Source: Phycisphaerae bacterium (GTDB lineage: Bacteria; Planctomycetota; Phycisphaerae; SM23-33). From it: a stretch of 34,248 bases of DNA. The position numbers and the translations under genes are program-made. The DNA is taken from NCBI GenBank assembly GCA_016931655.1, contig JAFGEJ010000046.1, positions 1 to 34,248 on the forward strand, given 5' to 3'. Position 1 is the stretch's first letter, and each line of letters begins with the position of its first letter. Positions 26,140 to 32,368 of the stretch are shown here, piece after piece. Under the pieces are notes generated by a model, which had not been told where the DNA came from, made no database searches, and worked only from the letters and a program-made list of their open reading frames with translations.

Positions 26140-26354
26140 TTTCGGCCCGAAGGGCCGAGGAGCGTCTGGCCGGGGGTGAGCGAAGCGAACCCCCGGAAAC
26201 GATTTTTTTGATTGGAGTCCCGACGGGACGACAGCAAGTTTACTGAAAAGGAATCGTTGCTGTCGCCCCGTTGGGGCTCTAAAAAAATAAACCTTCTTCC
26301 GGGGGTTCGCTTCGCTCACCCCCGGCCAAATGCTTTTCGTCCCTTCGGGACGAG
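26140..26354. repeat. Compound 215-bp inverted repeat made of nested hairpins
   Basis: Two arms of about 95 bp (26140-26237 and 26258-26354) are near-perfect inverted copies. Each arm holds three small palindromes in order: TCGGCCCGAAGGGCCGA (TCGTCCCGAAGGGACGA in the other arm), a CCGGGGG...CCCCCGG hairpin with core GTGAGCGAAGCGAAC, and GTCCCGACGGGAC (GCCCCAACGGGGC in the other). Compensating changes in the first and third keep the hairpins paired in both arms. The centre (26238-26257) is AT-rich. It separates the convergent enolase-superfamily and ispD genes and could terminate both. Sequence 26355-26545 holds no further feature I can support. Confidence 0.85.
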
Positions 26355-27283: not shown

Positions 27284-27350
27284 GGACAAAACTCCTTGTG
27301 CCACTTCAAACAATTTCTTCATTCACGACAAACACGACGTTGGAAAATCA

Positions 27351-27449
27351 TCCACGGATTACACGGATTGAATTCAGATTTCACGGATTGTATTACAACG
27401 ATTCAAAAAAATTCGTGTAATTCGTCTTTTAATCCGTGTAATCCGTGGA
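27351..27449. repeat. Palindromic repeat, CCACGGATT family, copy C
   Basis: A 99-bp imperfect inverted repeat between ispD and the rseC-like gene. Left arm starts TCCACGGATTACACGGATTG, right arm ends AATCCGTGTAATCCGTGGA. The mark TTCGTCTTTTAATCCG is in the right arm (same orientation as A and B). The rest of the gap to 27503 shows no feature besides an AT-rich flank. Confidence 0.9.
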
Positions 27450-27503
27450 GAATTTTAACTAACCCCCATAGAATACAAGCCCAAAATGCTCTCCGCAAAC
27501 GTC

Positions 27504-27532
27504 TTTACACTCCCGCGACGGATTGCTACACT
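27504..27532 (+). promoter_or_regulatory. Candidate promoter of the rnf operon
   Basis: TTTACA (27504-27509) and TACACT (27527-27532) are 17 bp apart, in the gap before the small Cys-rich gene. The predicted transcript start near 27539 gives a leader of about 33 nt before ATG 27572. It is the only such pair I see ahead of the operon; the evidence is a consensus match only. Confidence 0.4.
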
Positions 27533-27571
27533 CTTTCGTTTCCTGCGGCTGGTGTTTTCCGCGAGATACGT

Positions 27572-27892
27572 ATGGGTACACAAGTCACCAAAACTCCTGA
27601 TGAGGCATCGAGTTGCGACGGTTGCAGCGCCTGTGGACATTCGCATGAAATGCCCTGCAATGTCCCTGGCGGTCTGGCCGGCTGGCCGCTGGCGACGGCG
27701 GCGTTCTTTGTTTTCGTCCTGCCGGTGGGTCTGGCCATCGCCGGGGCCGCCCTGATCGGCAGGGATCCGAACCGGCAGATGCTCGGCGCCCTGGCGGGAT
27801 TTGTCGTCGGCGTGGTCCTGGCCGGCGTCGTGGCGAAAATTCTGCGGCGAAGAGTAAAAAACAAAACAGACTCCACGAATTTCACGAATTAA
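27572..27892 (+). CDS. Small Cys-rich two-helix membrane protein, RseC-like, first gene of the rnf operon
   Basis: 106 residues. A short N-terminal region holds SSCDGCSACGHSHEMPC, a C-x2-C-x2-C-x6-C cluster like that of RseC/MucC (SoxR-reducing system) proteins. Two membrane helices follow (ATAAFFVFVLPVGLAIAGAA and MLGALAGFVVGVVLAGVVA) and then a basic RRR tail. The N-terminal beta domain of full RseC (about 150 residues) is absent. RseC-like genes often accompany rnf/rsx genes, and here it stands directly before rnfC, so a role in electron transfer from Rnf or in its assembly is inferred. The last six residues (STNFTN) and the stop codon are encoded inside palindrome D, so the natural end was replaced by repeat insertion. 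Start ATG chosen because upstream in-frame sequence has no similarity to anything. Confidence 0.72.
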   Translation: MGTQVTKTPDEASSCDGCSACGHSHEMPCNVPGGLAGWPLATAAFFVFVLPVGLAIAGAALIGRDPNRQMLGALAGFVVGVVLAGVVAKILRRRVKNKTDSTNFTN

Positions 27893-27969
27893 AAGACGAA
27901 TTACACGAATTTTTTTGAAAATACAAAACCAATTCGTGAAATTGTTTTGAAATTCGTGTAATCCGTGGA
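27872..27969. repeat. Palindromic repeat, CCACGGATT family, copy D (inverted, overlaps gene end)
   Basis: A 98-bp imperfect inverted repeat. The mark, here AATTAAAAGACG, lies in the left arm, so it is reversed relative to copies A-C and forms an inverted pair with copy C around the rseC-like gene. Many CGGATT units are changed to CGAATT in both arms, keeping pairing (compensated changes). The first 21 bp are inside the rseC-like reading frame and include its TAA. Confidence 0.88.
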
Positions 27970-28017
27970 TGATTCAACGACGACAACGCACACATTGAAT
28001 AAGGATAAAAGAGCATT

Positions 28018-29373: not shown

Positions 29374-29382
29374 ACCGGAAAA

Positions 29383-29416
29383 GAGCTGATTGCTGAGAGC
29401 TGAAAGCTGAGAGCTT
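29383..29416 (+). repeat. GCTGA-rich tandem tract, copy 1 (rnfC-rnfD gap)
   Basis: An imperfect tandem array of AGCTGA/AGCTGAGA units (for example GAGCTGATTGCTGAGAGC) fills nearly all of the 48-bp gap. The only ribosome-binding-like purine stretch for rnfD (GAGAG, 29409-29413) is part of the repeat itself. A related tract stands before rnfA (32330). Confidence 0.7.
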
Positions 29417-29421
29417 ACACA

Positions 29422-30459
29422 ATGGCAGAAGAAGCAAAAAACAACGAACCCTCCGCCCCGGTGCTGCACGTGGCGCCCGGCCCGCATTTGCAGGACGTGA
29501 ACCTCACCACCCGCCGCATGATGCTGGACGTGCTGATCGGCCTGGCGCCGGTGATCGTCGCAGCGACGATCTTTTTCCGTCAGTACGCCTGGCTGCAGTT
29601 CGGCGTTTGCGTGGGCACGTGCTGCCTGAGTGAGGCGATCTGCTCGGCGATTCGTCGCAAGCCCATCCCGCTGCCGGACCTCTCCGCCGTCGTTACCGGC
29701 CTGATTCTTGCACTGTCCCTGCCGTGGAACTCGCCGATCTACGTCAGCGTGATCGGCTCTGCCGTCGCCATCGTGCTGGGCAAGGTGATCTTCGGCGGGC
29801 TGGGGCAGAACATTTTCAATCCCGCGATGGTCGGCAGGGCGTTTGTGATGCTCTCCTTCGCCGCGGCCATCGGGGCGCCGGCCTACGTGCTGCACACGGG
29901 CGAAAATCCCGCCAACCCGATCATGGACGTGGTCTCCGGCGCCACGCCGATGACGGCGTTGAAGGAATCCGGCGGCGTGACGCCCCTCCTGGCGCTGCTG
30001 CTGGGCAACACCTACGGCTCGCTGGGCGAGACCAGCGCCCTGGCGTGCCTGCTCGGCGGAATGTACCTGTGCATCCGCCGGACGGCGTCGTGGGAGATTC
30101 CCGCGGGCGTAATCCTGGCGGCTGTCGTTATTTCCAGCGCGATCGAAGGCTATCTGGCCGCCACTCAGGGCGGCGGGCTGCTGAATTTCATCGGCAACGG
30201 CGGCCATTGGGGCGTGCTGAGCGAAGTGCTCGGCGGGGCGCTGCTGTTCGGGGCGTTCTTTATCGCCACCGACCCGGTCACAAGCCCCCTGACGCCCAAG
30301 GGCAAGTTCATCTTCGGCCTGGGCGTGGGTATTTTCATCATGTTCATCCGCAAACTGAGCGTTTACCCCGAAGGCGTGATGTTCGCCGTGCTGCTGATGA
30401 ACTCCGTCACGCCGCTGATTAACCGCTGGACCGTGCCCAAACCACTGGGAACGAAATAG
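29422..30459 (+). CDS. rnfD: Ion-translocating oxidoreductase complex subunit D (RnfD)
   Basis: 345 residues, nine or ten hydrophobic segments of the NqrB/RnfD family. The FMN-attachment motif SGATPMT lies near residues 171-177 (covalent FMN on Thr). GLGQNIFNPAMVGRAF and FIATDPVTSPLTPKG are conserved family signatures. It lies in the membrane and with RnfG, A, E carries electrons and ions across it. The start has no classical ribosome binding site other than the GAGAG inside the GCTGA tract. The stop at 30459 is followed within 11 bp by a four-helix-bundle element that separates it from rnfG, an unusual break of the D-G junction. Confidence 0.97.
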   Translation: MAEEAKNNEPSAPVLHVAPGPHLQDVNLTTRRMMLDVLIGLAPVIVAATIFFRQYAWLQFGVCVGTCCLSEAICSAIRRKPIPLPDLSAVVTGLILALSLPWNSPIYVSVIGSAVAIVLGKVIFGGLGQNIFNPAMVGRAFVMLSFAAAIGAPAYVLHTGENPANPIMDVVSGATPMTALKESGGVTPLLALLLGNTYGSLGETSALACLLGGMYLCIRRTASWEIPAGVILAAVVISSAIEGYLAATQGGGLLNFIGNGGHWGVLSEVLGGALLFGAFFIATDPVTSPLTPKGKFIFGLGVGIFIMFIRKLSVYPEGVMFAVLLMNSVTPLINRWTVPKPLGTK

Positions 30460-30469
30460 GCAAAAAATA

Positions 30470-31050
30470 ATCAATATTCAATAAATCAATAATCAAACAA
30501 TAGAAGAAAATATCCAATAAGAGAAAATAAGAATTAGAAAAAGAAGAACATTCTGTTGTTTCTGAAGGAGAGTGATGAATATTACGTCACAATCCAAAAC
30601 AAATGCGTCCGGGAAACCGTGGGACCTAGAAGAACGAATGTTTTTGTTCGCACAGCGAGTCCGAAGGTTTTTGAGGCGAGTACCCAGAACGATTGCAAAT
30701 CAGGAATACGGCAGACAGTTAATTCGTGCTTCCGGTTCTGTTGGCGCGAACTATATAGAGGCCTGTGAGTGTTTGGGCAAAAAAGACCATCAAATGCATC
30801 TTAAAATCTCCAGAAAAGAAGCTCGAGAGTCACGGCATTGGCTTCGGCTGATAGATACGGGAGGGGAAAAAGATGTTGAGGATGAACGACAGGAATTAAT
30901 ACAGGAAGCAACAGAACTTGTAAGTATTCTGAGCAGTATTTTACATAAATCCAAAAAGGCAAAAGAAGTGGTTTGATCGAAGCGTTGTACTGTTTTCGGA
31001 TTATTTAAATTTTTGTCTTTTTGAATATTGTTTGAATATTGAATATTGAT
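30470..31050. mobile_element. 581-bp AT-rich IVS-like element with terminal inverted repeats, carrying a four-helix-bundle gene
   Basis: The unit sits between rnfD (stop 30459) and rnfG (start 31081). Its ends are inverted repeats. The left end is 30470-30502; the right end, read on the minus strand, is 31050-31026. ATCAATATTCAATA matches exactly at both ends, and CAATAATCAAACAATA (30487-30502) matches CAATATTCAAACAATA (31041-31026) in 15 of 16. The left end has 8 extra bases between the two blocks. The element is far richer in A+T than the operon. The only gene inside is a 23S rRNA intervening-sequence-type protein gene. I see no transposase, recombinase or reverse transcriptase, so mobility needs trans factors or another mechanism. 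Target duplication cannot be judged because no empty site is available. Confidence 0.65.
30575..30976 (+). CDS. Four-helix-bundle protein of the 23S rRNA intervening-sequence (IVS) family
   Basis: 133 residues. The family block is clear: YGRQLIRASGSVGANYIEAC followed by a short linker and HLKISRKEARESRHWLRLI, i.e. the Q-L-x-R-A-x-x-S-x-x-A-N-x-x-E-A and K-E-x-x-E-x-x-x-W-L pattern. Known homologues are encoded by insertions in 23S rRNA genes (Leptospira, Coxiella) and by Avd, an accessory of diversity-generating retroelements that binds nucleic acid as a pentamer. No reverse transcriptase is nearby here. Start ATG 30575 has AAGGAG 4 bp upstream. The codon use is much more A/T-rich than the flanking rnf genes, consistent with transfer. 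Whether it is only a passenger or has a role in handling the rnf transcript is unknown. The protein may bind RNA; this is inference from the family. Confidence 0.9.
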   Translation: MNITSQSKTNASGKPWDLEERMFLFAQRVRRFLRRVPRTIANQEYGRQLIRASGSVGANYIEACECLGKKDHQMHLKISRKEARESRHWLRLIDTGGEKDVEDERQELIQEATELVSILSSILHKSKKAKEVV

Positions 31051-31080
31051 CTATTGAATATTTTCTCGGAGAGAGCAAAC

Positions 31081-31659
31081 GTGAAATTTCTCAAACAAGG
31101 CTGGTTGGTATTGGTTCTGGCGGTGGTCTTCGGCGTGGGGCTAACGGCGGTCGACCGCACGCTGGGCCCGAAGATCGCCGAGAACCAGAAGAACGAAACC
31201 TACGGCCAGATTGCCAATCTCGTACCTGGCGGCGCCGCAGCCAACACCAAGGAAGTACGGATCGGCGGCCAAACGGTATTGAAGGTCTACAATACCGAAG
31301 GCGAGCACGTCGGCTGGGTGATCCCCGCCACGGGCATGGGATATTCCGACGCGATCAAGGCCCTGCTGGGGCTGGACGCACAGGCCAGAAGCATTACGGG
31401 CATTTACATCCTCGACCAGAAGGAGACGCCCGGCCTGGGCAGCAAAATCACCACCGACTGGAATCGACAATACGTCGGCAAAACCATTTTGCCGCCGCTG
31501 ACGGTCGTGAAAACCACGCCGACGAAAGAAAACGAAATCAAAGCCATTTCCGGCGCGACGATCTCCTCGAATTCCTTAACGGACATCGTGAACCGCGCCG
31601 CCGAGGCGTTTGCCAAAGCCCTTACCGCCGACGCGACGGCGAAGAACAAAGGACAATAA
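31081..31659 (+). CDS. rnfG: Ion-translocating oxidoreductase complex subunit G (RnfG)
   Basis: 192 residues from GTG 31081 with GGAG about 10 bp upstream. One N-terminal membrane helix (GWLVLVLAVVFGVGLTAVD), then a periplasmic FMN-binding domain with the flavinylation motif SGATISS near residue 158, where FMN is attached to Thr by phosphodiester bond. GMGYSDAIKALLGLD and YILDQKETPGLGSKI are family motifs. The frame is open 14 codons further upstream, to a TTG within the terminal repeat of the IVS-like element; that extension does not belong to the family. RnfG and RnfD hold the covalent FMNs of the complex. RnfE follows after 3 bp. Confidence 0.96.
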   Translation: MKFLKQGWLVLVLAVVFGVGLTAVDRTLGPKIAENQKNETYGQIANLVPGGAAANTKEVRIGGQTVLKVYNTEGEHVGWVIPATGMGYSDAIKALLGLDAQARSITGIYILDQKETPGLGSKITTDWNRQYVGKTILPPLTVVKTTPTKENEIKAISGATISSNSLTDIVNRAAEAFAKALTADATAKNKGQ

Positions 31660-32310: not shown

Positions 32311-32329
32311 AACAGGCAATAGGAAAAAC

Positions 32330-32354
32330 GCTGACTGCTGATCGCTGAAAGCTA
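32330..32354 (+). repeat. GCTGA-rich tract, copy 2 (rnfE-rnfA gap)
   Basis: A short array of GCTGA-type units (CGCTGACTGCTGATCGCTGA) ends 1 bp before the AAGGA ribosome binding site of rnfA. It is related to the tract at 29383-29416. Confidence 0.65.
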
Positions 32355-32368
32355 ACAAGGATATATTC

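Follow-up and report, generated by a model that had tools for sequence, protein, structure and literature searches.

An S23-type gene between inverted heptad arrays in the rnf operon of a Phycisphaerae bacterium: a probable copy of a minimal mobile element

The window analysed here, a stretch of 34,248 nucleotides from a Phycisphaerae bacterium, carries between rnfD and rnfG a unit of about 0.6 kb whose only open reading frame encodes a four-helix-bundle protein of the 23S rRNA intervening sequence type (IVP, or S23). Comparison of this unit with its relatives shows, at the level of sequence, a recurrent arrangement that we term the IVP element: one 23S-rRNA-IVP/S23 four-helix gene located between inverted arrays of a lineage-specific word of 7 bp (rarely 8 bp). 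The alignments also show that the word co-varies with the protein, that gene-less copies are abundant where the cognate protein resides, and that IVP units as well as gene-less arm pairs are mobile, since close relatives differ in whether a given junction carries one. We consider it quite probable that the unit in the window belongs to a widespread family of minimal mobile elements and moves by the mechanism proposed below.

The unit between rnfD and rnfG

The upstream host gene rnfD (29422..30459, + strand) is recognised by PF03116 and TIGR01946. The downstream host gene rnfG (31081..31659, +) is assigned from profile matches and the rnf operon context; its best NCBIfam match, TIGR01947 rnfG (E 4.6e-22), lies under the curated cut-off, and its match to PF04205 FMN_bind exceeds the cut-off of that profile. 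The initial annotation, made from this sequence alone, had described the two genes as normally adjacent, and in most relatives the gap is indeed about 0–70 bp without an insert. In the window, the gap between the end of rnfD at 30459 and the start of rnfG at 31081 holds the IVP gene (30572..30976, +, 134 aa), which starts with GTG, an ATG at 30575 being a possible alternative. The encoded protein matches PF05635 23S_rRNA_IVP (E 1.2e-12, 48.4 bits against a curated cut-off of 33.8) and TIGR02436 four helix bundle protein (E 2.3e-19, 69.6 bits against a cut-off of 24). Its AlphaFold model consists of four helices (pLDDT 93.5), and the best PDB matches of the model in Foldseek are the S23 structures 2rld and 2gsc. 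The earlier assignment of a single gene of the IVS-protein type is thus borne out by both the profiles and the S23-like predicted structure. Weaker structural matches are to Avd, the accessory protein of diversity-generating retroelements (DGR; 4dwl, TM-score 0.64 on the query), and to a chain of a DGR ribonucleoprotein (8ub7).

The left arm contains the heptad array AATCAAT ATTCAAT AAATCAAT AATCAAA CAAT... (30464..30502, +), whose partner in the RNA fold is the right arm, and its full extent in the gapped inverted-repeat alignment is 30473..30549 (+, SW score 30). The right arm, which is the reverse complement of the left one as judged from fold and alignment, occupies 30984..31062 (+) with a heptad core at about 31021–31062. 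Aligned locally, the left flank and the reverse complement of the right flank give a score of 30, with 60/82 matches and a best block of 20/22. None of 1000 dinucleotide shuffles reached this score (mean 13.7, max 28), which rules out a chance AT-rich likeness of the ends. The inverted repeats reported earlier therefore agree with ours in their core, while the exact blocks of 14/14 and 15/16 were not reproduced. When the RNA of the whole element is folded, as proposed earlier for a check, the region that begins at 30464 is paired with one that ends at about 31064 (z -5.9, 20 shuffles), so that the unit is slightly wider than the 581 bp (30470–31050) originally assigned to it.

No transposase is present in the unit. 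A search of the whole window against Rfam at gathering thresholds returned zero matches; a group I or group II intron is excluded by the lack of a catalytic RNA match, and a known structured RNA is likewise ruled out as the identity of the unit. The layout had been compared to that of an rRNA intervening sequence placed in a protein operon without any transposase, and both the protein family and the stem-forming ends agree with this comparison. The 23S rRNA intervening sequences with an S23 ORF in Leptospira, Coxiella and Xanthomonas share with IVP elements the protein family and the single sense ORF, and with the unit in the window the stem-forming inverted-repeat ends, the AT-richness and the sporadic distribution. 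The Coxiella intervening sequence carries tandem heptamers GACAGAT upstream of its ORF, and mobility of such sequences was hypothesised long ago (PMC4990558). However, the unit sits between the protein genes rnfD and rnfG and not inside an rRNA gene, so that it is not an rRNA intervening sequence in the strict sense, though its ends form a stem. IVP elements differ further in that their arms repeat a word which is specific to the element and matched to its protein, that gene-less arms are dispersed genome-wide and that insertion polymorphism is directly seen.

Heptad arms across the IVP family

We examined 107 distinct IVP genes from 35 genomes of the family and a few relatives outside it, taking an inverted-repeat score of 18 or more as the mark of cognate arms and arms swapped between elements as the control. 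Cognate inverted arms flank 91/107 genes, against 10/104 with swapped arms (mean scores 28.6 for the 107 genes and 13.2 with swapped arms); the remaining 16/107 are without arms by this test. The best period is 7 at 71/107 loci and at 2/107 in a distal-flank control. These two controls rule out that the arms are a general trait of intergenic DNA. Each element lineage has one 7-bp word of its own, for example ATTGCGG, AATGTCT, TCAGCTG or GGGACTA. On the protein tree the words group by clade, and arms of period 8 are confined to one clade, which takes a single change on the tree.

In a comparison of 141 elements, the similarity of arms on the same strand is correlated with protein identity (Mantel rho 0.249, where the maximum of 500 permutations is 0.059), and there is no correlation of protein identity with opposite-strand arm similarity; therefore the direction of the word relative to the gene is conserved as well. 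Part of this correlation would be expected from linked descent of arms and gene alone. It indicates that arms and gene travel together, and by itself does not prove that the protein reads the word.

The same arrangement recurs widely. When named genomes were searched with the Xanthomonas S23 protein, 76 loci from about 20 phyla proved usable, and cognate arms were found at 55/76 loci and in 6/73 swapped combinations; the period was 7 at 44 of the 76 loci and 8 at seven. Plasmid IVP genes of Cyanobacteriota and Bacteroidota have heptad arms too. Phages are rejected as carriers, since 50,697 phage records contained no IVP match. The arms as arrays of a 7-bp word, the match of word and protein, the recurrence across phyla and the gene-less dispersal were all absent from the initial annotation.

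The period-8 clade comprises L103, L104, L079, L120 and L124, with arms such as GGTTGACT, and is a natural test of how the IVP protein sets register. Two other protein clades (L083, L102, L100, L101, L078, L082 and L126–L128) are largely without arms and are possibly domesticated host genes. Pairs of adjacent IVP elements that differ in their word, within a few kb of each other, occur at L090, L138, L018 and L064.

Insertion polymorphism and host operons

The left arm of the unit is matched at about 25 other sites in the same genome, and its right arm is also matched by dispersed copies. These further copies of the ends, for which a search had been suggested, are mostly gene-less. At the rnfD–rnfG junction itself, only the left arm is retained in a congeneric genome (G001), while in G019 the junction is occupied by a decayed IVP gene whose arms consist of another word. 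A pair of arms with no gene between them lies there in G014, and one arm in G035; the gap has therefore been hit repeatedly. Arm-less rnfD–rnfG junctions do occur among the relatives, as had been looked for, although none of the relatives' junctions is a clean empty counterpart of the exact copy in the window. Because other copies and arm-less junctions exist, neither of the two outcomes named in advance as speaking against the initial annotation was found (the same gene at the same place in all relatives, or ends without further copies). Its suggestion of a minimal mobile element holds, as copies occur with and without the gene and units are present or absent at the same junctions in relatives.

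Heptad arms are not confined to this gap. The rnfC–rnfD gap contains a single gene-less arm, GCTGATT GCTGAGA GCTGAAA GCTGAGA (29382..29420, no strand assigned), detected as a lag-7 array, whose GCTGA word also makes up the arms of a further IVP gene in this genome (L163, 570–610 and 987–1035). Another single arm of the GCTGA word, read directly from the sequence, lies in the rnfE–rnfA gap (32329..32356, no strand assigned). Counts for the window's genome are based on pattern searches and on 230 kb of its sequence, in which self-similar arrays number 14 at lag 7, 13 at the harmonic lag 14 and 0–2 at the other lags within 4–13.

Insertion polymorphism is seen in Nostoc plasmids. At the junction of a TraM-like gene with the next gene, three plasmids have an arm-less spacer of 52 bp and two an IVP unit of 489–496 bp bounded by arms of (GGGAACA)n; of two further plasmids, one carries a pair of arms with no gene and the other an element with a different word. 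A second operon has a B–C junction of 3 bp in five plasmids, and three plasmids carry an IVP unit there. Its C–D junction is 0–4 bp long or an overlap in eight plasmids, and in one plasmid it is occupied by a different IVP element. Target duplication at these TraM-like and second-operon junctions is at most 3 bp (CTA, ATG) and ambiguous, and the TraM spacer is partly replaced at the insertion. On plasmid pNPM1 of Nostoc strain N6 (L346, 1202–1766), an IVP gene is broken by a 182-bp gene-less heptad pair of the same word. The flanks are near-identical to two uninterrupted copies, in comparison with which no sequence is missing and there is no visible target duplication (0–1 bp). No single consistent signature of target duplication was found across the polymorphic junctions. 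The IVP copies L168 and L169 on Calothrix plasmids are identical and looked like a recent move, but both lie in a shared 3.6-kb segment and are therefore not used as evidence of mobility.

The elements have a strong orientation preference. Where an armed element has two assigned co-directional neighbours, the IVP gene is sense in 72 cases and antisense in 2 (binomial P 3e-19), and with a cruder gene caller at the named loci the counts are 32 and 8; one Nostoc copy in an nrdB–nrdA gap is antisense. The host genes (rnf, acc, tra, cas, nrd, restriction) are unrelated across loci. It is conceivable that arms and IVP form a module serving the host, which regulates or processes the mRNA of its operon and is kept for that role. 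The sense orientation, the intercistronic position, the accB–IVP–accC order common to 13 Luteimonas species and Dokdonella, and an arm-less IVP clade that may be domesticated would fit such a role. However, the same junctions in relatives carry different elements and words or none, the host genes have nothing in common and the N6 copy has been broken by another insertion, so that we regard a regulatory module as improbable and prefer the reading as a mobile element.

Two IVP elements lie within defence operons, namely cas6–IVP–cas4 (L177) and DISARM drmD–IVP–restriction gene (L173). IVP genes have been reported in cas loci (PMC3936711), and the one at L177 has heptad arms like those at other loci. 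This suggests that 'cas-associated' IVP genes need not have CRISPR functions and may be element insertions.

Dispersed heptads, partner enzymes and a proposed mechanism

Dispersal is seen in Luteimonas, where an IVP gene 74% identical to Xanthomonas XCC0516 occupies the accB–accC gap between GGGAATC arms, a word which is exactly the Xanthomonas heptamer of PMC4692102. A Luteimonas genome with this gene contains 194 matches to a two-heptad pattern, against 0 for the reversed control. With dispersed heptads counted as GKGAWTS, at least 10 matches of GKGAWTSGKGAWTSGKGAWT were present in 13/13 genomes that carry the cognate IVP and in 4/39 that lack it (52 Luteimonas; Fisher P 3.7e-9, P values here overstating independence because the species share ancestry). 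A prediction made in advance also held, in that the GGGAAT share follows the arms of the resident IVP (0.34–0.81 against 0–0.23). Three heptad-rich genomes (G061, G069, G070) have no cognate IVP and have perhaps lost the gene recently. One Luteimonas junction, chosen to reveal target duplication, showed instead species-specific words between orthologous junctions and some arm pairs that bracket a host terminator which also occurs without arms; therefore the arms do not in every case mark the two ends of a single inserted block, which suggests rewriting in place or repeated separate insertion of arms.

These data bear on the view that heptads and IVP are two unrelated things, the heptads arising by slippage or through another transposase (e.g. 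RAYT/Y1) and the IVP being tolerated cargo or a host regulator. According to PMC4679880, earlier work had proposed slippage as a source of heptamers; in addition, Y1_Tnp was found in 8/8 genomes of one tested set and some heptad-rich genomes lack a cognate IVP, as just described. Against it stand the cognate pairing of the arms, the co-variation of protein and word, the Luteimonas association with its successful word prediction, and the clean insertions of whole units. Moreover, Y1_Tnp was not found in the heptad-rich genomes G092, G095 and G098, and its association with heptads is weak (Fisher P=0.07). The present data already argue against an unrelated origin, to which we give a low probability.

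The lack of Y1 in those three genomes also leaves a resident Y1/RAYT transposase unsupported as a required partner. The same holds for a resident reverse transcriptase, since a profile search with RVT_1 had no match in several IVP carriers: the window's own genome (G000, 90% complete), G009 (96% complete, with 8 IVP genes), G048 and G061. Neither enzyme is thus a universal resident partner, and no trans enzyme for movement of the element was identified among the reverse transcriptase and Y1 candidates.

In our proposed mechanism, an oligomer of the IVP would recognise its own arm word (solved relatives are pentamers) and join both arms as a hairpin, in single-stranded DNA or in RNA. In this form it would aid the copying or insertion of any arm-framed sequence, whether its own unit or a gene-less pair. 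The catalytic step would fall to enzymes of the host or to others, for example those of host replication or repair, and insertion would leave no target-site duplication. With no evident promoter of its own, the gene would be expressed by read-through from the host operon, and sense insertion between cistrons would therefore be selected. The hairpin of the arms may be excised from the transcript in the manner of rRNA intervening sequences, which RNase III removes with no ligation afterwards, and this would spare the neighbouring genes; by this analogy, removal of the element from RNA is plausible. In the window, such an element would have entered the rnfD–rnfG gap. To our knowledge a four-helix bundle has no catalytic activity, and none is expected, which counts against this otherwise best explanation.

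It is also possible that the element moves at the RNA level, the excised RNA (an RNase III cut or a spliced hairpin) being reverse-transcribed and inserted while the IVP acts as Avd does with the DGR reverse transcriptase. Avd belongs by structure to the same four-helix fold family (PMC10053308), and the matches of our model to 4dwl and 8ub7 reflect this likeness. The pairing of the arms in the predicted RNA fold, the sense-strand bias and the lack of target duplication at N6, the cleanest insertion, are consistent with such a route, as is the removal of rRNA intervening sequences by RNase III (PMC4990558). However, the sense bias is also explained by the need for read-through expression, and the carriers without RVT_1 include one with 8 IVP genes, which makes an RNA-level route rather unlikely. 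A diversity-generating retroelement proper is rejected for the window's genome, which is without a reverse transcriptase and where no template or variable repeat was seen.

In REPIN–RAYT systems, one gene per genome is accompanied by many gene-less intergenic inverted repeat pairs, and repeats and protein diverge together. IVP elements resemble them in the single gene with many gene-less inverted pairs and in this co-divergence. In contrast, the IVP protein is a four-helix bundle and not an HUH/Y1 transposase, the arms are tandem 7-bp arrays and not a single REP palindrome, and IVP genes are located within operons and mobile in their own right. The IVP as only ORF of the unit, together with the heptad-rich genomes devoid of Y1_Tnp, excludes REPIN–RAYT as its identity. 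Gene-less arm pairs resemble MITEs as inverted-repeat copies that depend on a trans factor, but we know of no transposase-bearing parent. A MITE or insertion sequence is also rejected for the unit, given its lack of a transposase and target duplications of 0–1 bp at N6 and of at most 3 bp, ambiguous, elsewhere.

The STRR heptamers of Calothrix and Nostoc, GGGAATC of Xanthomonas and TAACTGA of Beggiatoaceae have the same repeat length and intergenic location as IVP arms. In Xanthomonas, GGGAATC frequently forms inverted pairs (70/186 sites in Xcc; PMC4692102). Such heptamers have been described without a linked gene (PMC4692102, PMC4679880) and with no evident transmission mechanism (PMC4679880). 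We found no paper in the openly licensed PMC literature which links heptamer repeats to IVP, and as far as searched the link is new; for TAACTGA it is a candidate only. In CPR bacteria, IVP genes have also been reported from insertions in 16S and 23S (PMC11270868).

Taken across bacteria, it is slightly better than an even chance that IVP elements are an unrecognised mobile class in which a word-specific, non-catalytic IVP borrows host enzymes, a class that would be the source of STRR, GGGAATC and many other heptamers and of which rRNA intervening sequences would be the copies landed in rRNA genes. Structures of S23/IVP proteins were solved in 2006–2007, with their function unknown. This function and the heptamer repeats of cyanobacteria, xanthomonads and many others, unexplained for decades, were separate puzzles that are now tied together. 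Both become testable, since a 7-nt word goes with a protein clade, the element has no transposase and solved relatives are at hand for structural work. If this is true, many genes annotated 'four helix bundle protein' would be mobile-element genes.

A few other repeats were noted in passing. At L004 (about 1501–1640), a gene-less TTGAATA hairpin lies in the middle of a CACAGAG-type inverted repeat, so that small elements are nested there. In the window, positions 27344–27974 contain long inverted repeats (49 nt at 94% and 45 nt at 80%) with CACGGATTACACGGATT-type words, and the small ORF inside them at 27.5–27.9 kb is RseC-like by eye only. A hairpin at 26142–26353, with 57-nt arms that are 89% complementary, is of a different, GC-rich kind.
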